From positions 1 to 64,000 of IMG/VR virus record IMGVR_UViG_3300048930_000242: 64,000 nucleotides of DNA; one strand, 5' to 3'. The notes beneath the pieces were generated by a model. That model saw nothing but the letters and a program-made list of their open reading frames with translations, was not told where the DNA came from and did no database searches. The translations under genes and the position numbers were made by a program. Below are positions 2,061 to 49,046 of this stretch, in pieces. The DNA is from a virus. The stretch's first letter is position 1, and each line of letters opens with the position of its first letter.

Positions 2061-2642
2061 TCAGTGGATTGTACCGCGGTGGATGCACTCTCCTTCGGCA
2101 AGATGATTGGCGAATTCAGCGCAGACCTGAGCGGCGAAGATAGGGATAGTCCATTCTATATCATCCAGGTCCGTTTGTACAGTAGTTCCTTCAGCCATCG
2201 GAATGCCCACAACGAAGAAGCCGATCAGGAGTTTCTTGTTGTCCCAGTCATAGACCTCTTGCTGGAGTAGACTACAGACCGACATGGTCTTCGCCACTCT
2301 GAAGGTTCGCCCATCTCGCTCGAAGTCAAAGATCCACATTGGCGCGGACTTCGAGTCGGCCAGTGGATTGATCTTCTTGGTCGGGCGGATGCCCATATAA
2401 TGCTTGCGTGTGAAGTCCGAGATCGTCTCGGAATGAGGGTCGATTTCCTTGACCGTGCTCTTGACATAGACTCCGGAGGTGGAGTGATTGATAAGATCCC
2501 ATTCCACCTCCTCTTCGGTCAAGGATTGAATTTCTTCAATCTTCAGGTCCAGATTCTTCCGTTCCAGGTTCCTCATTTTCGGAAGCGGAATCTTCGGAGA
2601 TTGCTCCACTGACATACTTGAACCGCTTTCCGCACCACTCAT
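2061..2642 (-). CDS. Conserved hypothetical between uvsX and 41
   Basis: A 193-residue soluble protein I do not recognise. Its first 107 bases overlap the acidic 3' end of uvsX in another frame. The ATG at 2642 has the best ribosome site (GGAG seven bases upstream), while internal ATGs at 2615 and 2576 lack one, so I keep the long form, with some doubt. No membrane segment or catalytic motif is evident; charged helical stretches dominate the first 50 residues. In T4, gene 40 sits at this place, but I see no similarity to it. A role in replication or recombination is suggested only by position. Confidence 0.6.
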   Translation of the reverse strand: MSGAESGSSMSVEQSPKIPLPKMRNLERKNLDLKIEEIQSLTEEEVEWDLINHSTSGVYVKSTVKEIDPHSETISDFTRKHYMGIRPTKKINPLADSKSAPMWIFDFERDGRTFRVAKTMSVCSLLQQEVYDWDNKKLLIGFFVVGIPMAEGTTVQTDLDDIEWTIPIFAAQVCAEFANHLAEGECIHRGTIH

Positions 2643-3642
2643 CGATTTTCTCCAGAACCGGTTGGGTGAAGAACTTCTCTGGATGTCTCAGAATAGCCTT
2701 TTCGAAAGCCTTTGAGCCATCTGGAAGCTCGTACTTATTGGCCACTTTCTTGAAGATTCCAGCGGCTTCAGCCATTGGCAAAAGACCCCAATATCGGTCA
2801 ATGCCTCCATCGTATCTAAGCAGAGATTCAACTCGCTGCTTTTCTCTGGTAAGACGAGACTTCTCGGTGACGAACTTGATTATCGAGCCGGTTGTGACCT
2901 TGTCGTCCTTGTCGTAGGACTTGGAGCAGAAGAGAAGGGTTGACGCGGCATACTGAGCACCAGTTCCGCCAGACATCGTGTTGGTCGGAATGTAGGCGCC
3001 GATCGCAGCGTAGACGTGACTGGTCAATAGCATCGGAACATTAAGGCGACCACATTCGATGGTCAGAACTCGGAAAGCTCCCTTCATCAACTGCTGCTTG
3101 GTCATGTCACGCTTATCCGATCCGGATGCGATGTCAGTGACTTCCTTCGTTGTGGAGAGGTTACCGATCGAGTCAAGGACGAGCATCAGCTTCGGAGGCG
3201 GCGCCTTGAACTTGTTCTTCTTAAGGTGCGGTCCGATCAGCTCATGGTACTTGTTCAGCACGTTCAGAGCCTTGGTCCTGAACTCCTCGACGGTCGCCAC
3301 TGGCTCAACGGCCACTCTCGAGACATCGATTCCTTGGGCTTCAAGTTGAGCTCTGGTGATTGCCGCCTCGGAGTCAAAAATGAGCACCTCATTCTCCGGG
3401 TCGATGTCCAAGAAACCCTTGATGCCACGGATGATGAAGAAGGTCTTGCCGGTCGACTTCTCACCCGCAAATCCAGTGATCTTGTTTGTAGGGAATCCAC
3501 CGAAAAGTGATCCTGAGATCAAGGCATTCAGTGAATAGCTTCCGGTGTCCATGAAGCCGGTAACGTCTCCATAGGCTCCTACATCGGCGACAGTTCCGAA
3601 TCCATCGGAAAGAGCGCTTGAAACTGCTTTCAATAACGACAT
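2536..3642 (-). CDS. uvsX: UvsX RecA-like recombinase
   Basis: Strand-exchange ATPase of the T4 recombination machinery; with UvsY it forms filaments on single-stranded DNA. Walker A is GEKSTGKT at about residues 60-67 and Walker B is LMLVLDSIG. A segment LTSHVYAAIGAYIP followed by a Gly-rich loop (MSGGTGAQYAAS) fits the L2 DNA-binding region. The C-terminus is strongly acidic (ISEDSASENEE), as in UvsX and RecA tails. Length 368 against 391 in T4. The gene starts ten bases after the preceding stop at 3652, and its 3' end overlaps the next gene. The partner uvsY and helicase uvsW are at 24-26 kb. Confidence 0.93.
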   Translation of the reverse strand: MSLLKAVSSALSDGFGTVADVGAYGDVTGFMDTGSYSLNALISGSLFGGFPTNKITGFAGEKSTGKTFFIIRGIKGFLDIDPENEVLIFDSEAAITRAQLEAQGIDVSRVAVEPVATVEEFRTKALNVLNKYHELIGPHLKKNKFKAPPPKLMLVLDSIGNLSTTKEVTDIASGSDKRDMTKQQLMKGAFRVLTIECGRLNVPMLLTSHVYAAIGAYIPTNTMSGGTGAQYAASTLLFCSKSYDKDDKVTTGSIIKFVTEKSRLTREKQRVESLLRYDGGIDRYWGLLPMAEAAGIFKKVANKYELPDGSKAFEKAILRHPEKFFTQPVLEKIDEWCGKRFKYVSGAISEDSASENEEPGTEESGPED

Positions 3643-3651
3643 TATGACTCC

Positions 3652-4737
3652 TTAATCGAAGAATGAACTCAAATCATCACATGTTTCTGGAACCGTTGTA
3701 ACCGCTCTGGCCACCTGTCTCTTTGAGATCAAATGAGGATTATCTCGGAGCCTAAAATAGATGCCGCACTGGCATAATCCGACTTCGGTTCCGTAGGTCT
3801 TCAACTCATTTTGATCTTCGGCGAAAATCTTGATTCCATTGGAAACAACATTATAGGTGGCCGGGTGAAACTTGTCTCGGAGACCTGGGAATAGTTCGTC
3901 TTGATTCTCCCTGATCCAGATCACTCGCTCTCCCATTGGGAACTCTTTCTCGGAGACTCCAGGGAAGATTTTGCCGAGTGTAAACTTCGCTCCGGGTCCA
4001 GGGGAGCAGAACGCTTCATCATGATTGAAAGGAAGACCCGGATTTACCGAATTCGAGGTTGCGCAGTGATAGCCATAGTAAGGACCAATGCCTCGAATCG
4101 ACCGAAGGTTGTCATACATATCTTTCAGTGTCTTGGACTCAATCAAGCGGTCCATCATTCCATCGTTCTTCCATGAAGCGATCCATTCCGCTACGGCCAA
4201 TGAACCAGAGGCCTTGGCGTCCGCCTCTGAGTAGGTTCTCTTCACGAACTTGTTGCCGGCATCCATGATTGAGGTGTGGAGTTCGGTGGTTCCCCAGAAC
4301 GGGAGTCCTTTTGCCTTTGACTTCGCGGTCTCTCCACGAAGCCAGGCTGTGTACTCTCCGATCTTGCCAGTCTTGGCGTAATCGAGCTGCTCCTTGGCCA
4401 GTGAATCGAAGTCCACCAGAGCGGTGTCTGGATCTTGATAGCCAGTCAAGACCGAGTGAATGCCGCGAGCTCCGTAGAAGTGTGAGATGATCGTGTTGCC
4501 GAGCTTGTTTTCCATAGAGAGACCAGGAGCGGTCACAATATGGTTCATGATGTAGACCATTCGGTCGTCGAGAGTGATCTGAGACGAGAAGTACTCAACT
4601 CCCTCTCCGAGAGCAGGAGAAGGAGCCTCATAGGCCGGAATGATACCACGAATGAAAAGGTTCCGCTCGTTGATTTTCTCTAGGAAGAAATGGAAATCTT
4701 CCAGAGCGGCCTTATCTAGTTTGCTTCTTGGATTCAT
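3652..4737 (-). CDS. Putative DNA base hypermodification protein (aGPT-PPlase / 5-hmdU kinase helical family)
   Basis: A 361-residue helical protein resembling the alpha-glutamyl/putrescinyl-thymine pyrophosphorylase superfamily, HhH-glycosylase-like enzymes predicted to replace a pyrophosphate on a 5-hydroxymethyl pyrimidine in DNA with another group. The diagnostic part is the helix-hairpin-helix-like RSIRGIGPYYGY at residues 212-223, followed by DEAFCSPGPGAK at 240-251; the PGPGA element after an acidic residue is typical of these proteins. An upstream ITLDDRMVYIMNH (54-66) fits the usual DRV segment. The family call is from memory of motifs and was not searched; the helical domain of 5-hmdU DNA kinases is the nearest alternative. 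It overlaps the FkbM gene upstream by four bases, so it belongs to the same operon. Confidence 0.65.
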   Translation of the reverse strand: MNPRSKLDKAALEDFHFFLEKINERNLFIRGIIPAYEAPSPALGEGVEYFSSQITLDDRMVYIMNHIVTAPGLSMENKLGNTIISHFYGARGIHSVLTGYQDPDTALVDFDSLAKEQLDYAKTGKIGEYTAWLRGETAKSKAKGLPFWGTTELHTSIMDAGNKFVKRTYSEADAKASGSLAVAEWIASWKNDGMMDRLIESKTLKDMYDNLRSIRGIGPYYGYHCATSNSVNPGLPFNHDEAFCSPGPGAKFTLGKIFPGVSEKEFPMGERVIWIRENQDELFPGLRDKFHPATYNVVSNGIKIFAEDQNELKTYGTEVGLCQCGIYFRLRDNPHLISKRQVARAVTTVPETCDDLSSFFD

Positions 4738-5660
4738 ACCTTCCTGCTCTTGATATAGCTCTCGAGATAATCGGCCGGTTCGCCTTTCAAGAAGTCGGTG
4801 GCCATTTTCAAGACCTCCGGTTCATTCAGGTCGAGAGACCCAAGTTTCTTCTGGAGCTGGCGATCGCATGAGCGGTGTCGATTGAACATGTCTCGCTCTC
4901 GCCAATCCCACGGACGGGAGAATCCCATCTGCATGATATTGAATCCATGGAAAGTGCAGAATCCATGGTGAGTCCATACCGGCTGGAGATTACAGACCCA
5001 CATGTCGCCGGCGAATGTCTTGCCGAAAATCGTGAACCAGAGATGATTCAATCGCTCCGGCTTATTGAAGACATGAATCTCCAGAACGACCTGGCAAACC
5101 GAGTCCGGTAGCTTACGGTCGATCAGCTCAAACTCGGCGCCTTCAACATCACATTTGAGAATCCCAGGTTTCTCTTCCTCGATCATTTTGTGGAAGTCGA
5201 TTGCTGGGACTCTCTTGACGATGCGACCCTTGGTGATCGACTCTGGACGCTTGATCTCTCCAGAGAGTTTGTCGCCGGACTCCAGAACCAGGAAGTCAAC
5301 GAATGGATCGGAGCCGCGAATGGCGGCCGCATTATGGAGCTGGTAGGAGCCTTCGGCGAACTTGTTATTCAGCTTCAAGCAATCGAAATTGTCCTCGTCC
5401 GGCTCGATTCCAATGTAGTAGGACGCTCCTTGTTCTGCGGCCAGTCGGTTGAACGAACCGGCGCATGCTCCAAGGTCCATGACCTTTCGGCCTTCGAAGT
5501 CGAGGTGAGTGTAGGACCCGAGCTCTTTCAAGCTCGGGTGAAGGGCCTTGAGCTGGTTCGAATCATTAAGATGAAAGAAACCAGATGGGTCGATCAAGAT
5601 CTCCTGGCCAGATCTTGTGAAATGGCCAGAAGACTTCGCCTTTGACGAATTATGCTTCAT
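4734..5660 (-). CDS. FkbM-type SAM-dependent methyltransferase
   Basis: A 308-residue Rossmann methyltransferase. The SAM-binding motif I is KVMDLGACAGSF (residues 59-70), and the FkbM hallmark LKCDVEGAEFELI occurs at about 168-180. FkbM enzymes usually O-methylate small molecules or sugars. Here the gene is wedged between an inositol-phosphate synthase and a hypermodification-type protein, with a four-base overlap downstream, so methylation of a modified base or of its inositol or sugar adduct is a reasonable inference. A surface-glycan role is the alternative. The C-terminal 110 residues are rich in Trp, His and Phe (VWTHHGFCTFHGF) and are not part of the core fold. The ATG at 5660 follows a GAGGGG ribosome site. 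Confidence 0.8.
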   Translation of the reverse strand: MKHNSSKAKSSGHFTRSGQEILIDPSGFFHLNDSNQLKALHPSLKELGSYTHLDFEGRKVMDLGACAGSFNRLAAEQGASYYIGIEPDEDNFDCLKLNNKFAEGSYQLHNAAAIRGSDPFVDFLVLESGDKLSGEIKRPESITKGRIVKRVPAIDFHKMIEEEKPGILKCDVEGAEFELIDRKLPDSVCQVVLEIHVFNKPERLNHLWFTIFGKTFAGDMWVCNLQPVWTHHGFCTFHGFNIMQMGFSRPWDWRERDMFNRHRSCDRQLQKKLGSLDLNEPEVLKMATDFLKGEPADYLESYIKSRKV

Positions 5661-5675
5661 TATGATGTTTGCCCC

Positions 5676-6923
5676 TCAGTCGTAGTTGCTGATGCCGCAA
5701 TCCTTCAGAGCATTCAGGTTGGCCGCTCGGTACTCGGTGCCTGGAATGTACTCGTAGAACTCCGGAGCGATTCGGCAAGAGAGCAGATCGCATTCCTCAC
5801 GAGCCATCTGAGTAGGAAGGTCGATCGGAGGAGTCTTCTGAGTCCATGCCGACGGACCGATCAGCGGTCCGACCAAGCCGATCTCTCGAGCGACTTGTAC
5901 CAGTCGGATTGCGTCGCAGACCACCGCGGCCGAGTTCGGCGAGTCCTCGACCGAAAGGTCGGCAGTGAACTCGATCGGAGCACCACCCCAAGAAGTCGCC
6001 TTGATCAGGAAGTGAGCACGCTTGTTGTCTTTCAGAGCGGTGAAGTAGGCGGCCGGGCCGGCCTTGATCGTATGAGGCTTCACCTCGGCATGAGCGATCT
6101 TCGACTGGTTGACGATCACGTTCTCTTTGGACTTCTTCTTGGACTTGAGGCGGCCCTGGTCCTGCATGTTCAAGAAGTCGGTGTTACCGCCAACATTGTC
6201 CTGGTAATGCATGGTGACGTCGGCTCCACGAGCGAGGAAAAGCTCCTGAAGGACGGCCGAGATGATGCTCGCTCCGACGCAAGACCGCATGTCGTCTCCG
6301 ATCATCGGGATCCGTGCGTCGATGAACTTCTGAGCCCACTCCTTGTTCGAGCCGATGAAGACCGGAATGCAGTTCACAAACGAGATGCCGGTCTCCAAGC
6401 AGATCTCGGCCCAGAACTCGGTGGCCTTCTGAGAGCCGACCGGAAGGTAGTTCACAACAGCCGTGACGCCAAGTTCAACGAGATGGGCCTTGATCCGCTC
6501 CTTGGAGATCTGCTCTTCAAAATTTCCAAGCTCGTCTTCGTTGATGAATCCCTCGTTATAGGCCCAACGGAAATCACGAAAGGAGTGATCGCAGTCATGG
6601 GCGTACATATGGTTCGAGACTCCATCCATGATCGGAGCCGGTCGGACAATCGGGTCATTGAAATCCTCCGAGAAATTCTTGTGGAACTCCAGAGTACAGT
6701 TCGGCTTCTTGAAGATGGCCCAGGTCAATGGCTGGCCGATCTTCCGGAAGTCGACGTCGAATGCGGCCGCGACCTGGATGTCACGGGTCTCATAGCCGCC
6801 GATGTCCTTATGGATCACGCCGCAAGCGTCCGGAGTGTCTCGGTAGAAGTCCAGGCCTTGGACAAGTGAACTGGCGCAGTTGCCAACGCCGACGATTGCG
6901 ATCTTGATCTTTTTCCTGCTCAT
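5676..6923 (-). CDS. ino1: myo-Inositol-1-phosphate synthase
   Basis: Converts glucose 6-phosphate to 1L-myo-inositol 1-phosphate using NAD. The 415-residue protein shows the family motifs in order: NAD-binding GVGNCASSLVQG at the N-terminus, GDDMRSCVGASI in the middle, NVGGNTDFLN, KATSWGGAPIEF and SVEDSPNSAAVVCDAIR near the end. The length is typical of the short prokaryotic form (about 360-420). It is the first gene of the 3.65-6.92 kb operon and has its own strong promoter (7000-7028). The enzyme is rare in phages. Its product could feed a DNA hypermodification made by the two genes after it. Host inositol-lipid or glycan metabolism is another possible use. Confidence 0.93.
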   Translation of the reverse strand: MSRKKIKIAIVGVGNCASSLVQGLDFYRDTPDACGVIHKDIGGYETRDIQVAAAFDVDFRKIGQPLTWAIFKKPNCTLEFHKNFSEDFNDPIVRPAPIMDGVSNHMYAHDCDHSFRDFRWAYNEGFINEDELGNFEEQISKERIKAHLVELGVTAVVNYLPVGSQKATEFWAEICLETGISFVNCIPVFIGSNKEWAQKFIDARIPMIGDDMRSCVGASIISAVLQELFLARGADVTMHYQDNVGGNTDFLNMQDQGRLKSKKKSKENVIVNQSKIAHAEVKPHTIKAGPAAYFTALKDNKRAHFLIKATSWGGAPIEFTADLSVEDSPNSAAVVCDAIRLVQVAREIGLVGPLIGPSAWTQKTPPIDLPTQMAREECDLLSCRIAPEFYEYIPGTEYRAANLNALKDCGISNYD

Positions 6924-6999
6924 GCTCGTTTCTCCTATTTCAGTTTCAAGTCATTGGGCGGCGAGCTGGCCGCAGTAGGACTTTGAGGTTGTAGTGATC

Positions 7000-7028
7000 A
7001 TTATACCACACCAGGTAGCCTTTGTAAA
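7000..7028 (-). promoter_or_regulatory. Early promoter of the inositol-phosphate synthase operon
   Basis: Read on the minus strand: TTTACA (7028-7023), 17 bases, TATAAT (7005-7000), with the extended -10 context TGTGGTATAAT. It is the best sigma70 match in the window. The -35 box lies inside the loop of a perfect 13-bp inverted repeat. The leader to the ATG at 6923 is about 70 bases. Confidence 0.85.
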
Positions 7029-7042
7029 CGGCTACCTGGTGT
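7008..7042. repeat. 13-bp perfect inverted repeat overlapping the promoter
   Basis: Arms 7008-7020 and 7030-7042 are exact complements, separated by nine bases that contain the -35 box. On the minus strand the hairpin follows the stop of the C5-MTase gene at 7058 but has no U-tract after it. It could be a terminator of the upstream operon, a repressor operator, or both. Confidence 0.7.
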
Positions 7043-7057
7043 TCTATCTAGTGATTT

Positions 7058-8308
7058 TTATTGGAAATAGCTGCTCATAGAAGAGAACTCGCCGGTGCTC
7101 TTCGTGGATCGGATCAAGTCCTGATGGACGTAGTCCGCACCGGAAAGAGGGAGCTCTCCGTTGACGTACTTGACGGCTTGCCCGACGAAGTACTCTCCGG
7201 TTGTGACCGGAACCGACTGAGGGATGTGAGGAACCGACTTGCGACCTTCCAGAAGTTCGAGGTCGATCGGAAGCCTCATGATGCACATCATCTCACGGAC
7301 ATTCAAGTACCGATTCTCATACGGGTGGGCGATGTTGTCGACACACTTTCCGGCGAAGGTGTTGTGGCGACCATCTGGATTGATGATGTAAGAGCCAGCA
7401 TAGTAATAGCCCATGCCGCGCTTGGTCTTCTCCATTGCGAGATTGACCTTGTAGCTGAAGTTCTTGACGCCATTGAACGGACCATCGCCGGTCCTCTCGA
7501 TGTAGTCCATGCACTCCTGGAACTTTCCGTTCTCGATCACCCACTCGATGGTAGCGATATGTTGATCGACCGGCACTACCTCGGTAGTGAATCGCTGATG
7601 ATCCATTCCGTGAAGGTCCAGAATGAAGCGATAGGCCGGATCGTAATAGGTGATTTCACCATGACGAACCGCGTGCTCTCGATTGAAAGGAGACAGAAGA
7701 GCCTCGTCGATGATCTCTCGGTAGGTCTTCATTTTGACCTTCGGAGCCTGCTCGATGAATGGAGCCGACTTCGAGTCCCAGAAGAAATAGAACGAACGGA
7801 GTCGGTTCTGTGGGAGTCCGTGGACCATCGAGTTGGTCAGTGCGGTTGAGAACGAGTACCCGTGGTCCTTGGCGATCTGCTTCAGAACGTCCAGCGTTCC
7901 CTTTCCTCTTGGCTGGACCAACCCAGGAGCATTCTCTCCGAGCATGACCTTCGGTCGGATTTGCTCGAGGACCAAGTTGGCGCTCTTGTACATCCACTGA
8001 TTCTGCTGAGCGGTCGCGCCGGAGCTGAGTGGATTCCGAGATGTGTTCAGCCTGGAGAGGCCGGCGCACGGGCAAAGAGCGGTAACGATGTCGATGTCGC
8101 CGCCGGCCATTCTGGCCTTCAGATCGTCGGTGAAACCAGACTCGTCGACCAAGTACCGAGGAACTTCCGGTCCGAAATAGTTGGTCAGATGAGATTCATT
8201 GGCATTGAATGCATTCCAAGAGACCATGAAATCCGGCTTGGTTCCGATCACATTCCGGGCGGCGATCGCCATTCCGCCGATAAGAGGTACGATAGCTGCA
8301 TGCTTCAT
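7058..8308 (-). CDS. DNA cytosine-5 methyltransferase family protein
   Basis: A 416-residue protein with most motifs of the C5-MTase fold. A degenerate motif I is at the N-terminus (VPLIGGMAIAARNV). Motif IV is ALCPCAGLS with the nucleophile Cys81, motif VI is GENAPGL (Ala replaces the usual Val), motif VIII is HGLPQNRLRS and motif X is QSVPVTTGEYFVG near the C-terminus. It probably transfers a methyl or related one-carbon group to C5 of cytosine. The target-recognition part (about 175-350) is unlike common restriction enzymes. It overlaps the SGNH-like gene upstream by four bases. In a phage that also encodes a gp42-like hydroxymethylase, a plain m5C role would be odd, so action on a specific sequence or on another base is possible. 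Confidence 0.8.
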   Translation of the reverse strand: MKHAAIVPLIGGMAIAARNVIGTKPDFMVSWNAFNANESHLTNYFGPEVPRYLVDESGFTDDLKARMAGGDIDIVTALCPCAGLSRLNTSRNPLSSGATAQQNQWMYKSANLVLEQIRPKVMLGENAPGLVQPRGKGTLDVLKQIAKDHGYSFSTALTNSMVHGLPQNRLRSFYFFWDSKSAPFIEQAPKVKMKTYREIIDEALLSPFNREHAVRHGEITYYDPAYRFILDLHGMDHQRFTTEVVPVDQHIATIEWVIENGKFQECMDYIERTGDGPFNGVKNFSYKVNLAMEKTKRGMGYYYAGSYIINPDGRHNTFAGKCVDNIAHPYENRYLNVREMMCIMRLPIDLELLEGRKSVPHIPQSVPVTTGEYFVGQAVKYVNGELPLSGADYVHQDLIRSTKSTGEFSSMSSYFQ

Positions 8309-9531
8309 GAAAAGAAATTCTCCACATTATGAGAGGTGAGCGACGAGTAATCATTCTGTCGATTATTGCGGATGTCCCAGAAGTAGAACTCCGGAGAGAG
8401 GTGAATGCCTCGTCCTTTCGTTGCTCCAGGTCGACCGGACTCCATGACCTCTGGATTGAAGCATCCTTTATGGTCTGTAAATCCGTCTGGCCACTTCAGG
8501 TAGTTCCAGCCCCGGAGCCGGCAACGATCTTCTAGTTTGTCCGACATATATCTACGGGCATAATCTCGTTGCGCCCAAGTGCCAGAGAAAGGCTGTAGCG
8601 GCCCATTGACCTGCTTTCCTTTCGCATTGGTGATCTTTGGAGCGAACATCACGGACAGTGAAATCGTTCTCGAATCGTCATTGATCGGGAACGGCTGGGC
8701 AATTGTAACTTCGTTGAGTTCCATTCCGAGAATCTGAGCGATGTAGTTGTTCACCAGATCATCAATGGTCTTTTCGACATCTGGGAACCGGCAAATATGA
8801 TGCCGAAGGTCGATGTTGCCGTAGTTGAAAATGCCACGGTTGAATCTCTTGGCCGCGCCTTTGAATACCGACTCAACGATCGCTTTGAATCCTCGCTTGG
8901 TCGCTCCGTGGAGAGTTTCACCTTTGCGGTAGATCAAAGCATGCCCCGGCCGCCAGCAAGAAAGTCCGTGTGAGTCGCCTAATACGAACCCATCATACCC
9001 TCCTTTGACCACCGAGTCCACCCAGGGGTCATAGAACTCTCTGGCTGCGCTGTCAGCTTCCGAATAGATCGAGTGATCCTCAAGGCGCTTACAGGCCGCC
9101 TCAAACAGTTCCAGAGTCGGAGTACCCTGCCATTCCGGCTTGCGAAGAGTGGTGGATGCTCTGTTCTTGAACTTGTCCGGGAACGGAAACTCAAGAGCGG
9201 TCGGATTCTTGCATTTCGCAATGGATTCCCAGCACTGATTGACTCCGTGAAGCCACCATTTATAGGTCTCCGGATCTTCGGACGCTCGGCCATATTCGTT
9301 CCAGTTCCATCCGCCGATCTCTGGGCCGCCGTAGGAGTCACCAAGGTGAATCAGTGTCTGGTGAATGCTTTGGTCTTGCATCAAATCCCATTGGTTGGCT
9401 GATGTGGTAACTTCGACATCACCAAATCCAAAGTCTCTCATTGCGGCGGCCATAATCTCCATACGACCGCGGAAGTGAGAGTTCCACTTGTTGGCAATAG
9501 GATTCGGCACACAAACGATAATAGATTTCAT
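8305..9531 (-). CDS. SGNH/GDSL-hydrolase-like protein of unknown role
   Basis: A 408-residue protein with two SGNH-type signatures in one region: GFVLGDSHGLSC (Asp-Ser nucleophile block, about 182-192) and NYGNIDLRHH (about 236-245), which resembles the Gly/Asn block and the Asp-x-x-His end of that fold. An earlier LIHLGDSYGG (60-69) repeats a GDS motif. SGNH proteins are esterases or acyltransferases. No signal peptide is present, so it acts in the cytoplasm. It sits between DNA polymerase and the C5-MTase, overlapping each by four bases, which ties it to DNA metabolism. An acyl- or glycosyl-type step in DNA modification is speculation. The N-terminal 180 residues are unrecognised. Confidence 0.55.
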   Translation of the reverse strand: MKSIIVCVPNPIANKWNSHFRGRMEIMAAAMRDFGFGDVEVTTSANQWDLMQDQSIHQTLIHLGDSYGGPEIGGWNWNEYGRASEDPETYKWWLHGVNQCWESIAKCKNPTALEFPFPDKFKNRASTTLRKPEWQGTPTLELFEAACKRLEDHSIYSEADSAAREFYDPWVDSVVKGGYDGFVLGDSHGLSCWRPGHALIYRKGETLHGATKRGFKAIVESVFKGAAKRFNRGIFNYGNIDLRHHICRFPDVEKTIDDLVNNYIAQILGMELNEVTIAQPFPINDDSRTISLSVMFAPKITNAKGKQVNGPLQPFSGTWAQRDYARRYMSDKLEDRCRLRGWNYLKWPDGFTDHKGCFNPEVMESGRPGATKGRGIHLSPEFYFWDIRNNRQNDYSSLTSHNVENFFS

Positions 9532-12101
9532 CCGAAGAAATCCTCCAAGCTCCGGTCTGGTTCAGTGAGAAGTCCAACAGCGTCGGTGATTCCTTTCAGA
9601 GGAGTCAAGAACGAGAAGTCGTACATATGCTGCCGGTCGATGAACGGCTCGATATTGAATTCTGTTGGAAGGCGAGTGAAGAAGGCGATGGTGTCGGCCT
9701 TCAATGGGTTCGGCATGTTAAGGTGAAGGTAACGGATCTTGGAACCAGGTTTGATAATCTGGTACTTGTTGTCAAGCCCCATCTTTGTAAGCCAGTGGTT
9801 GTAATAGAGGACGCCACGAATCGGAGGCTGAGCTCCTTTGCCAGGGAGGCCGTCCAATCCTTTCCATTTATCTAGCTCGGAGACTCCGCGAGGGCAAGCG
9901 ATGTCGTAGACATTCAAAGTCTCGTATTCATCACGGATTCGCTTGATCAGTGGCACCAGGCGCTCTTTGTCGTTGATGTCGCCGGTCAAAATGATCTTGA
10001 CCGCTTCGGCCAAAGCGTCTCGGCAGAACTTCGGCGTGGACGTCTGGACAAGCTGAAGACCGACGGCCTTCTGTTCCGGCTCGGCGTAGCGGACGCCTTC
10101 ATTGTCGATCACGTTCAGAGCGTACTTCTTCTTGGCCGTCCAGAAGCCCTTGTCCGAAATGGCTTCTCGCTTCATGCTGATCAGAGTCTCGCGGCACCGC
10201 ATATACTTCGCGAGCTCCTCAATAGCCGGAATGATCGCCGACTCGGTGATTCGCTCCGAGACCTTGTCCAAGAAGTCAGTGATCTCGGTTGTGGTGGCGC
10301 CTGACTTGTTCCGGAAAGACATGTCGACCAAGTCACCGAGCTCAAAGTAGACCGAGTCGGTGTCGATCGCCAAGCACCGATCCTTCGGAGGGAGATGACT
10401 CAGCACTCGGTTAAGGAACTCGTTCACACGACGCTCGATGAACTGGATCACTACCTGAGACGTCAAGGTCACGCCTTCGGCCATTCGGATGTCGAAGAAC
10501 CTGAACCACTCGTTGGCCATCGCTCCGTAGAGAGAATTCAAGAGGACCTTGATCGCGCCTTCCTTGGTCTTGTAGCTCGAGGCTTCTTTCTTCAGAGCGG
10601 CCGCTTCGGAACCGGAGTGCTTCTCGGCATCCTTCAGAAGACTCAAAGCCTTGGACTTGGTCGTCTTTCGCTCATTGAAGAGTTCGGCAACGAGGCCAGG
10701 GATGGTCGAACTCTTCGAGTGACTGAAGAGTACGCCGTTCGCCGCGACCGAGAATCCTTCTGGGCATGCTTCCACTAGAGTATTCGCCGCAGAGGTCTGC
10801 TGAACCAAGTCATTCGAGTAGTCGCGGTGTTCGCAGATCGGATTGTTCGTGACCGTCGAGGCGCACATGTTCCACTGACGGATGATCGTCGGATGCATTG
10901 AGGCTACGTCGAAAGAGACGATCCAGCGGTACATCCCAGGGATGACTTGCTTCACGTAGGCGCCAATGTATGGCTGCTTAAGTGAATGAGTAGACAGTGG
11001 AGCGGCTCGGCCGGAATCAAGGAGCTTGTTACAAATGTAGGCATCCCAGACCTTGACCGGAGAATAGACATCTTCGAGATTCACCTTTGCCGTATAGGCG
11101 ATGAACATGGCGGTCTGAATCATCTGGCGTTTGGCGTTGATCAACCAAACCAACCAGGAGTCCAAGATGTTGTAATCATTAAACTTCTGAGGATTCACAT
11201 CGTACATGTTCTGGATGGTTTCTTCGTCGGTATAGTCGATCTTTGTCGTTCCGAGCTCGACCGTGGCGATTGTGGCCAGTCGGTAATTCTCTCGCGGCTT
11301 CACCTCGAACTTCTTGTAGAGGTCTTGAAGGTCAAGCTGGGCGATTCCGTAAAGATTGACCGTAACGGCGGCATTGCCATACGAGTCTTTATACTCACGC
11401 TTGGTGACCGCTCGGAACGGAGACAGCGTCTTGGCATGAGCTTCGCCAAGCACGAAGACGATCCGATTGTAGAGGTATGGAATGTCGAATCCGCCGGAGT
11501 TCCAACCGGACACGACCATAGGATAGTTGGTTGTCCAGAAGCTCAAGTACTGCCGGAGAAGTTCCTTTTCATCGCGGCAGTGCCGGAAGATGATCTTGCT
11601 CATGAGATCCGGGTAGATCTCATTGATGAACGACTCCTTGGCCGACCACGGTGCCAATGAGAAAAGGTAGAGCTTGTCGTCCAGTGAGTCGTAATGGGAG
11701 ATCGAGAGGATCTTCTTGGCCGCCATGATCGGAGATGGGAAGCCATCGTCGGACTCCACTTCCAGGTCGAACATCGAGACCCGAGTCTTCTCGAACTGTG
11801 GATGAAGCACTTGATTAGCATAGAGCGAAGAGATCGCGTTATGCGCCCACTGGTTCTGACCATAGACCGTGAATCCGCGCTCTTGGTTCTCGTCGATGAA
11901 GTCCTTGGCCGCATTGAAGTCATCCAGCTCGACCGCTCCTAGACGAATGTTCTCGTCGAGCATCGAGGTGAACTCGCCGTTTGGCGCTTCAATGTAAAGG
12001 GTCGGCCGAAAGTCCTTGACGTCTTCTTTGCAGTCGCGGCCATGTTCATCGATGTACCGATGAAGGACCGAGTTGCCCCACTTTTGAACTGAGATGTACA
12101 T
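9528..12101 (-). CDS. 43: Family B DNA polymerase
   Basis: Replicative polymerase with 3'-5' exonuclease, 857 residues (T4 gp43 has 898). Exonuclease motifs: ExoI FDLEVESDDG, ExoII SGWNSGGFDIPYLYNR, ExoIII YNILDSWLVW. Polymerase motifs: A SFDVASMHPTI (Met-His in place of Leu-Tyr), B KVLLNSLYGAMAN, C AIDTDSVYF. The C-terminal residues SLEDFFG resemble the clamp-binding tail of T4-type polymerases. The ATG at 12101 has AGGAG upstream. Its 3' end overlaps the SGNH-like gene. A probable early promoter and a terminator hairpin lie just upstream at 12130-12188. Confidence 0.96.
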   Translation of the reverse strand: MYISVQKWGNSVLHRYIDEHGRDCKEDVKDFRPTLYIEAPNGEFTSMLDENIRLGAVELDDFNAAKDFIDENQERGFTVYGQNQWAHNAISSLYANQVLHPQFEKTRVSMFDLEVESDDGFPSPIMAAKKILSISHYDSLDDKLYLFSLAPWSAKESFINEIYPDLMSKIIFRHCRDEKELLRQYLSFWTTNYPMVVSGWNSGGFDIPYLYNRIVFVLGEAHAKTLSPFRAVTKREYKDSYGNAAVTVNLYGIAQLDLQDLYKKFEVKPRENYRLATIATVELGTTKIDYTDEETIQNMYDVNPQKFNDYNILDSWLVWLINAKRQMIQTAMFIAYTAKVNLEDVYSPVKVWDAYICNKLLDSGRAAPLSTHSLKQPYIGAYVKQVIPGMYRWIVSFDVASMHPTIIRQWNMCASTVTNNPICEHRDYSNDLVQQTSAANTLVEACPEGFSVAANGVLFSHSKSSTIPGLVAELFNERKTTKSKALSLLKDAEKHSGSEAAALKKEASSYKTKEGAIKVLLNSLYGAMANEWFRFFDIRMAEGVTLTSQVVIQFIERRVNEFLNRVLSHLPPKDRCLAIDTDSVYFELGDLVDMSFRNKSGATTTEITDFLDKVSERITESAIIPAIEELAKYMRCRETLISMKREAISDKGFWTAKKKYALNVIDNEGVRYAEPEQKAVGLQLVQTSTPKFCRDALAEAVKIILTGDINDKERLVPLIKRIRDEYETLNVYDIACPRGVSELDKWKGLDGLPGKGAQPPIRGVLYYNHWLTKMGLDNKYQIIKPGSKIRYLHLNMPNPLKADTIAFFTRLPTEFNIEPFIDRQHMYDFSFLTPLKGITDAVGLLTEPDRSLEDFFG

Positions 12102-48065: not shown

Positions 48066-49019
48066 TCAGAAGCCCTCATCAAGCGGGATTTGGAGTAGAT
48101 TCTCGTCCTTTTCTTCGGCCGCTTCGGATGCCTTGTACCACTGGCCGATGCTAGGCGCGAAGAATCTGACAAGCCATTCATAGTTGGTCAATTCGGTGGC
48201 ACGACTTGGTGGCACTATGTTATACCTAGTGAGACCGGAAACGAACACGAACAAGTGATTCTTGAACGAAAAAGCATCTCGACTCTCTTCTTGGAAAACA
48301 GAATTAGCGTGCGGATTGAACTCGTCTTTGTTCCAATGCTTTTCGTAGATGTGAAGAGAGCCGGCATTGTGGTAGTAATCGCCTAGCTTCAGATTGTTCA
48401 TTCCGCGGCGGAACTTCAAGACTGCGTACATCATCCAGGCGATGAACTGGAACTGAAGGATGTCATTGCACCAGCCGACCACCAAATCGTTTGACCGCAT
48501 GTTCACGATCATATGGAGTTCATCGTTGCGGATCAAGAACTGGAGAGAAAGCGTACATGGGGTGTCTTTTGGATTGAGACCGGAATTGTCGACTCCGTGG
48601 ATGTTGATGATCGCCTTTCTGGACTGAGGATCGGCAGCCAGAAGGTTCACGCAGTTGTCGAAGCGAGAGATCAATTCGGAGCTTGAACCGTTAGAGAGCC
48701 CTTCATGCTCAGCGAAAATCCAGTACCCGTAATTCGAGATCACATTTCCGCTGCCATCCTTAAGCGTATCCCAGAAAGGAGCGGACTTGGAGATTCCGGC
48801 CGCTTTCAAGCTCTTCGACATGTACCAATTGAACTCGTCGATAACATACGACGGCTTCAGTTTCCTGGAGCCAAGAGTGACCACCAATGGATCGTTGAGA
48901 TCGAAAAACATTCGTGAGGCGATCACTTCTTTCGATCTGGTGCCGCGAGTCTCAACCAGAAAGCCGTCTTCCAAGATATTTTGGCCGGCTTTCTGGTACA
49001 TTTCGTTCACAATACTCAT
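48066..49019 (-). CDS. 42: Deoxypyrimidine hydroxymethylase (gp42-like, thymidylate-synthase superfamily)
   Basis: 317 residues. Catalytic Cys155 is in DTPCTLSLQFLIR, and IVNMRSNDLVVGWCNDILQ (171-189) matches T4 gp42 NMRSNDVVFGFRND closely. The residue in the place of thymidylate synthase Asn177 is Asp186, as in T4 dCMP hydroxymethylase, which favours dCMP over dUMP. NAGSLHIYEKHW is the conserved C-terminal motif. The ATG at 49019 (AAGGAG five bases upstream) is preferred to a GTG at 49025. The enzyme makes 5-hydroxymethyl-dCMP with methylenetetrahydrofolate. Early promoter at 49060. Confidence 0.82.
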   Translation of the reverse strand: MSIVNEMYQKAGQNILEDGFLVETRGTRSKEVIASRMFFDLNDPLVVTLGSRKLKPSYVIDEFNWYMSKSLKAAGISKSAPFWDTLKDGSGNVISNYGYWIFAEHEGLSNGSSSELISRFDNCVNLLAADPQSRKAIINIHGVDNSGLNPKDTPCTLSLQFLIRNDELHMIVNMRSNDLVVGWCNDILQFQFIAWMMYAVLKFRRGMNNLKLGDYYHNAGSLHIYEKHWNKDEFNPHANSVFQEESRDAFSFKNHLFVFVSGLTRYNIVPPSRATELTNYEWLVRFFAPSIGQWYKASEAAEEKDENLLQIPLDEGF

Positions 49020-49046
49020 ACTCACTCCTTCTCATGTTCACAGTTC

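Follow-up and report, generated by a model that had tools for sequence, protein, structure and literature searches.

We propose that a T4-like phage, represented by the IMG/VR virus record IMGVR_UViG_3300048930_000242, decorates its DNA with inositol. On this reading, to which we give a probability of about 0.55, myo-inositol made by the phage is attached to 5-hydroxymethylcytosine (hmC) and often O-methylated. The 64,000-nucleotide stretch that was analysed (the window) comes from a virus record 153,340 bases long, and positions above 64,000 refer to that record. Five of the genes concerned lie on the minus strand of the window, in the transcription order P0005, P0004, P0003, P0002 and P0001, with the DNA polymerase gene on one side and uvsX on the other. 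Judged by gene content, the core of the system is P0005, the myo-inositol-phosphate synthase (MIPS) P0003, a small HAD phosphatase and P0001, with a deoxycytidine monophosphate (dCMP) hydroxymethylase. The genes are as follows.

8305..9531, minus strand: P0005, 408 amino acids (aa), Rossmann-like N-terminal domain and SGNH-fold C-terminal domain
7058..8308, minus strand: P0004, 416 aa, cytosine C5-methyltransferase (C5-MTase) homologue, PF00145 2.7e-17
5676..6923, minus strand: P0003, 415 aa, MIPS (Ino1), PF01658 1.1e-22
4734..5660, minus strand: P0002, 308 aa, FkbM-family methyltransferase, PF05050 2e-9
3652..4737, minus strand: P0001, 361 aa, HMUDK_hel/aGPT-PPlase-type helical protein, PF18723 3.3e-13
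48066..49025, minus strand: P0006, 319 aa, dCMP hydroxymethylase of thymidylate-synthase (TS) fold, PF00303 3.7e-26
111961-112386: small HAD phosphatase, homologue of Cr30 gp118
101464-102156: T4 gp1-type deoxynucleoside monophosphate (dNMP) kinase, PF21448 6.8e-13

Recurrence of the gene set in related viruses, which the first-pass annotation had proposed to look for, was found in dozens of other viral contigs. With P0001, aligned with two relatives, as the only bait, the best 80 of 153 viral contigs were taken, and genes were counted in the 60 of these 80 that extend 4 kb or more beyond P0001 on its upstream side. MIPS and HAD were present throughout (60/60 each) and P0005 in 59/60, together with FkbM (34/60), the dCMP hydroxymethylase within 6 kb (22/60) and C5-MTase (7/60). 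The median distance between MIPS and P0001 was 1,875 bases. In nearly all contigs P0005, MIPS, HAD, FkbM (optional) and P0001 shared one strand, and a dCMP hydroxymethylase gene frequently lay upstream of them. Because 24 representatives of the P0001 set remain at 85% identity, the set is not one phage resampled. As a control, 64 loci that have P0005 but not P0001 (658 kb in all) were searched by tblastn for MIPS, HAD and P0001, with 0 matches. Since the genes recur together in dozens of contigs and the control stands at 0/64, the association is real and not due to chance.

In a reciprocal test, a MIPS alignment retrieved 547 viral relatives, and inspection of the best 80 loci revealed P0001 in 53, the amino acid:DNA transferase (ADDT, PF18724) in 11 and FolE/QueC in 2. 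The other 14 loci, mostly short contigs, carried P0005 (12) or a P-loop kinase (2), and a DNA-modification neighbour or marker was present at all of these best 80 loci. These counts bear on the idea that MIPS and HAD feed other metabolism (host lipid, osmolyte or carbon) and merely travel with the modification genes. Although the pair turns up in three distinct gene surroundings, as could be expected of a mobile metabolic module, MIPS accompanies P0001 in 60/60 contigs as against 0/64 P0005-only loci, and none of the best 80 MIPS loci lies away from DNA modification. In Aeromonas phages of the 44RR type, moreover, the same transferase subfamily stands beside a sugar-type symporter in place of MIPS. 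We regard a purely metabolic role as very improbable.

The supply of inositol is indicated by P0003 and the HAD phosphatase. The best PDB match of P0003 is Ino1 of M. tuberculosis (1gr0, E 1.5e-76), and comparison with a genuine Ino1 profile gave 4.9e-112. Lys262, Lys266, Lys301 and Lys363 are invariant across 21 viral MIPS. In an alignment with solved MIPS of eukaryotes and bacteria, K262, K266 and K301 fall on the SKxxSK and DxK sites, and the C-terminal site K363 is likewise kept in viral MIPS; in yeast numbering the active-site lysines are K369/K373/K412/K489. Because the four lysines are kept and the Ino1 match is strong, myo-inositol phosphate is the favoured product, and P0003 is predicted to convert glucose 6-phosphate to inositol phosphate. 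The HAD protein of the window phage is homologous to gp118 of Caulobacter phage Cr30, which lies near the Cr30 MIPS, and keeps the HAD motifs, which are retained in 82-88 of 88 members. HAD proteins are found with MIPS in three DNA-modification settings, namely P0001, ADDT and 7-deazaguanine. As HAD tracks MIPS across these settings, not one base chemistry, we read this protein, missed in the first-pass annotation, as a predicted inositol-phosphate phosphatase.

Another reading accepts a hypermodified hmC and makes inositol phosphate the precursor of a different polyol or cyclitol, or has it attached as a phosphodiester. MIPS-fold enzymes include the five-membered-cyclitol-phosphate synthase 6k96, which is the second-best PDB match of P0003 (E 2e-41); P0005 has no assigned chemistry, and other hmC phages exchange groups freely. 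However, the four lysines and the Ino1 match favour myo-inositol phosphate, the tracking of MIPS by HAD argues for a free polyol, and the cassette core has no recurrent oxidase, isomerase or aminotransferase. We consider a different attached group unlikely.

The base that would receive the inositol is indicated by P0006. The record carries two TS-fold genes (PF00303), a normal TS and P0006. The latter is closest to the T4 gp42 structure 1b49 (E 4.8e-22) with the catalytic Cys aligned, and has Asp, not Asn, at the TS-177 position, in RSNDLVVGWCND. Asp at position 177 marks dCMP-specific TS homologues (PMC8670742), and it was found in 44/44 TS-fold enzymes linked to P0001-anchored cassettes. By these features P0006 is a dCMP hydroxymethylase and the source of 5-hydroxymethyl-dCMP. 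The first-pass annotation had overlooked this gene while postulating a hydroxymethylated pyrimidine as the handle, and the presence of P0006 in the same window supports that postulate. Because a dCMP hydroxymethylase is present, the modified base is most likely cytosine in the form of hmC. The identity of the base and the supply of inositol are the better-supported parts of the prediction. Oxidation of 5-methylcytosine by a TET/JBP enzyme was rejected as a source of hmC, as PF12851 had no match in the phage. A TS-like plus-strand open reading frame (ORF) at 137847-138656 proved to be an antisense shadow of the normal TS.

P0001 might catalyze the attachment. Its PF18723 (HMUDK_hel) match is shared, above cutoff, by 25/25 family members. 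With the AlphaFold2 (AF2) model of P0001 (pLDDT 90), a search of BFVD returned the Aeromonas phage 31 fusion protein (1.9e-12) and the 5-hydroxymethyldeoxyuridine (5-hmdU) DNA kinase of Bacillus phage SP10 (3.7e-6), the kinase being matched in its helical domain only. Other HMUDK_hel proteins were found at TMt 0.59-0.67 and aGPT-PPlase clade 1 at 5e-4 and 2.2e-3. The first-pass annotation had called the product of 3652-4737 aGPT-PPlase-like and had proposed a check of its structure; the predicted fold is indeed related to aGPT-PPlase clade 1 as well as to the 5-hmdU DNA kinase helical domain. Within the HMUDK_hel/aGPT-PPlase superfamily, P0001 is nearest to the helical family of 5-hmdU DNA kinase, and aGPT-PPlase clade 1 comes second, which corrects the first-pass assignment. 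P0001 was rejected as a 5-hmdU kinase, since it has neither a Walker A motif nor a P-loop kinase domain, and as an ADDT, since it has no profile-profile relation to PF18724. From its profile and model, P0001 is predicted to be a DNA base-modification transferase without a P-loop.

Some P0001 homologues (L019, L021, L187 and L229) bear a C-terminal extension of ~100-150 aa without a Pfam match. A fusion of P0001 with HAD in L187/L229 was considered and discarded, as no HAD was found inside the long ORFs tested. In IMG/VR, relatives of P0001 and P0005 had to be sought with alignment queries, as scans with either sequence alone gave no matches.

P0005 had no match in a Pfam search. Its AF2 model (pLDDT 81, pTM 0.84) showed a PDB fold match of the C-terminal half to 7pzg, an SGNH sialate O-acetylesterase (E 1.3e-4), in agreement with the SGNH-like protein placed at 8305-9531 by the first reading. 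The SGNH-type blocks GDSH (S187), G209, GNID (N239) and H377 are conserved across 50 P0005 homologues, and the conserved stretches comprise GDSH, GNIDxRHH, PIxxxSR and SVHLS-type positions. With regard to blocks I (GDS), II (G), III (GxND-like) and V (His), the set is complete SGNH-like, and P0005 is a candidate for an activation or esterification step in hmC hypermodification. Because P0005 also occurs in hmC loci without MIPS, with other partner genes, its step is probably a general one, common to several hmC hypermodifications, for example the activation of the 5-hydroxyl. A beta-glucosyltransferase in P0005 was rejected: a weak PF09198 match (0.019) appeared in 2/50 relatives, and a PDB search with the N-terminal profile gave no match.

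P0005 also has homologues in other surroundings. A recurrent hmC-type cassette without MIPS, seen at L134:3467-8594 and at some 60 loci like it (L099-L173), contains a dCMP hydroxymethylase, two helical families (clusters 6 and 14), a pyridoxal phosphate (PLP) enzyme (phrog_7093, threonine dehydratase) and P0005, and looks like an undescribed hypermodification system. In Aeromonas Tulanevirus (L175:3389-6663 and L016:7763-11047) a P0005 homologue lies beside a putative UDP-galactopyranose mutase and a 358-aa protein, possibly a sugar-furanose variant of hmC modification. Directly upstream of P0005 there is often a DUF6378 (PF19905) protein, as at L062:4316-4651 and in 36 further cassette loci; it might be an accessory nucleotide pyrophosphohydrolase.

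The two proteins are found as one in Aeromonas phages 44RR2.8t, 31 and their relatives, where the halves of a 795-aa protein (ORF233c in 44RR2.8t/31) match P0005 (N-terminal) and P0001. The P0001 half of the 44RR protein is 55-57% identical over the full length to proteins of three loci (L186, L238 and L243) which carry MIPS, HAD, P0005, C5-MTase and dCMP hydroxymethylase. Like the window phage, 44RR carries a dCMP hydroxymethylase with Asp; unlike it, the 44RR-type Aeromonas phages gave no match in a MIPS search. In the three records that were opened (44RR, UP87 and AS4), a gene of about 507-519 codons stands immediately upstream of the fusion gene. That of 44RR (L004:5091-6614) encodes a sodium/solute symporter whose best match is the sodium/galactose transporter of Vibrio (vSGLT, 3e-103), that of AS4 is annotated as a sodium/glucose cotransporter (sglT), and that of UP87, equal in size and position, is listed as a hypothetical protein. 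On the simplest reading, the 44RR symporter would import the kind of small molecule that MIPS and HAD make in other phages.

MIPS and HAD also serve, apparently, in other modification settings. A Cr30-like branch combines ADDT (PF18724, 1.3e-52 in Cr30) with MIPS and HAD, and a P-loop kinase (PF18751) lies downstream of HAD in Cr30 and several further loci. In gene content this branch shows the full thymidine-type logic of kinase and transferase, with the inositol supply replacing the amino acid, and would model the activation of the hydroxymethyl group. The modified base of Cr30 may be thymine-derived, because its sole TS-fold gene carries Asn. Cr30 gp114 (L002:18051-18596), annotated as a terminase small subunit, is homologous to the PF18751 P-loop kinase and probably misannotated. 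In Stenotrophomonas phage Moby (L003:14213-19627), MIPS and HAD lie inside a 7-deazaguanine cluster (folE, MIPS, HAD, queC, TGT, queE), which suggests inositol on 7-deazaguanine. The order MIPS then HAD is shared by the P0001 and ADDT settings and the Moby cluster. A broader and so far doubtful proposal is that inositol is a general phage DNA decoration, with the MIPS and HAD module serving at least three unrelated base chemistries, namely hmC (with P0001/P0005), a hydroxymethyl pyrimidine (with ADDT and kinase, Cr30-like) and 7-deazaguanine (Stenotrophomonas), and with 44RR-type phages importing the polyol.

The FkbM, MIPS and C5-MTase identities given in the first-pass annotation are backed by the profiles PF05050, PF01658 and PF00145. 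P0002 also matches TIGR01444 (3.6e-13, above cutoff) and is predicted to O-methylate the attached polyol. To this extent the earlier suggestion of methylation after attachment holds, but FkbM occurs in about 57% of the cassettes and C5-MTase in about 12%, and neither belongs to the core. In P0004, PC (C81), ENAP (E125) and QxRxR (R169/R171) are invariant in 11 homologues; ENV reads ENAP, and motif I is altered to PLIGG. C5-MTases couple thiols to hmC in vitro. We regard P0004 as an optional member. If all cytosine in the DNA were hmC, it would have nothing to methylate, and its target might then be leftover or host cytosine, or it might apply covalent C6-adduct chemistry to hmC. By the definition in PMC12783734, a CmoX enzyme has an SPPC motif and a carboxylate-binding Arg350; P0004 was rejected as a CmoX enzyme by the motif, as CPCAGLS replaces SPPC in 11/11 homologues.

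The enzyme families, the dCMP specificity and the co-inheritance of the genes are supported by sequence, and from them we propose a pathway for inositol attachment. P0006 would make 5-hydroxymethyl-dCMP, which the T4 gp1-type dNMP kinase and the polymerase would bring into the genome as hmC. MIPS would convert glucose 6-phosphate to inositol phosphate, from which HAD would release free myo-inositol. P0005 and P0001 would then act on hmC in finished DNA. The 5-hydroxymethyl group might be activated by the SGNH active site of P0005 or by a second function of P0001, after which P0001 would join an inositol hydroxyl to the 5-methylene carbon to give an ether; alternatively, P0005 might complete the link between inositol and hmC in some other way. 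A precedent for the O-linkage is phage ViI, in which a serine hydroxyl couples to activated thymine. Where FkbM is present, it would finally O-methylate the inositol. For this scheme we infer that the group attached is inositol and the bond an ether, how P0005 and P0001 share the work, in what order the last steps follow one another and what part the C5-MTase has.

Several points weigh against this pathway. Its chemical steps are predictions from gene content. No kinase was found in the P0001-type cassettes, so the activating enzyme is a candidate only. A PDB fold search with P0001 gave nothing significant, the hit of highest probability being the 5-PmdU glycinyltransferase PUGT (8z2n, probability 0.41, E 0.83). 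The ring product of MIPS could differ from inositol phosphate, given the kinship with 6k96. P0005 occurs in 64 hmC loci without MIPS and is therefore not inositol-specific, and a T4-type dCTPase was not detected in the window phage.

It is also conceivable that hmC in the DNA stays plain or bears a common sugar or amino acid, and that P0001 and P0005 use host metabolites, as happens in hypermodification with amino acids. P0001 is nearest to thymidine-hypermodification proteins that use amino acids, and P0005 also accompanies the PLP-enzyme cassettes and the putative UDP-galactopyranose mutase. Yet the window phage has no match to a T4-type glucosyltransferase (PF09198), TET (PF12851) or ADDT (PF18724), and the near-obligate MIPS and HAD would then have no role; we judge this explanation very unlikely.

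The proposed attachment of inositol to hmC shares features with several known systems. With thymidine hypermodification (SP10, ViI, M6 and PhiW-14) it has in common the predicted helical transferase-type fold and the hydroxymethyl pyrimidine handle, and in the Cr30-like branch only, ADDT and the P-loop kinase. It differs in its cytosine base (Asp177), in a P0001 without P-loop, and in the apparent MIPS and HAD polyol with no amino acid. Like hmC glucosylation in T4 and arabinosylation in RB69, it combines a dCMP hydroxymethylase and a gp1-type dNMP kinase with post-replicative decoration; unlike them, the window phage lacks a glucosyltransferase profile, and a MIPS polyol replaces the UDP-sugar and is handled by another transferase class. 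The 5-carbamoyloxymethylcytosine system found by MetaGPA (PMC8670742) likewise obtains hmC through an Asp177 TS homologue and has a partner enzyme that modifies the 5-hydroxyl, but this partner is a carbamoyltransferase, and the paper makes no mention of inositol. The CmoX system of 5-carboxymethylcytosine (PMC12783734) also places a phage C5-methyltransferase homologue in a hypermodification locus, whereas P0004 has CPCAGLS instead of SPPC and the handle here is hydroxymethyl. No paper linking inositol to phage DNA modification came up in a literature search that reached neither Iyer et al. 2013 nor the paper on the thymidine-hypermodification pathway.

The five ORFs between DNA polymerase and uvsX are all at the minus-strand places claimed in the first-pass annotation, overlapping or closely spaced. 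Overlaps of 4 bp occur at three junctions, polymerase/P0005 (9528-9531), P0005/P0004 (8305-8308) and P0002/P0001 (4734-4737); the gaps are 134 bp from P0004 to P0003, 15 bp from P0003 to P0002 and 9 bp from P0001 to uvsX. The flanking genes and the normal TS are the following.

2536-3642: UvsX-like recombinase flank, phrog_97, 2.6e-69
9528-12101: family B DNA polymerase flank, phrog_262, 1e-242
137853-138638: normal TS, the second TS-fold gene of the 153-kb record

A 405-aa open frame antisense to MIPS (5652-6869 of the window, plus strand) was taken as a shadow ORF. The window phage also carries an NAD salvage pair, a nicotinamide phosphoribosyltransferase and a nucleotidyltransferase-Nudix protein (105482-107914 of the record, G000; L007:4482-6914), and a similar pair is apparently present at L015:13336-16676.

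The phage hypermodifications on record comprise sugars, amino acids, polyamines, carbamoyl groups and 7-deazaguanines. A cyclitol on DNA, if true, would add a new class to these decorations, and one that brings along a synthesis module of its own. As inositol-5hmdC and glucosyl-5hmdC have the same formula, C16H25N3O10, mass alone cannot distinguish them, and peaks taken as glucosyl-hmC in liquid chromatography–mass spectrometry could be inositol-hmC. The prediction is testable in isolated phages, namely Aeromonas 44RR2.8t/31, Caulobacter Cr30 and, for the 7-deazaguanine branch, Stenotrophomonas Moby/Mendera. P0001 and P0005, both widespread families, gain a concrete candidate function, and inositol decoration, if true, would probably keep restriction enzymes and CRISPR nucleases from cutting the DNA.

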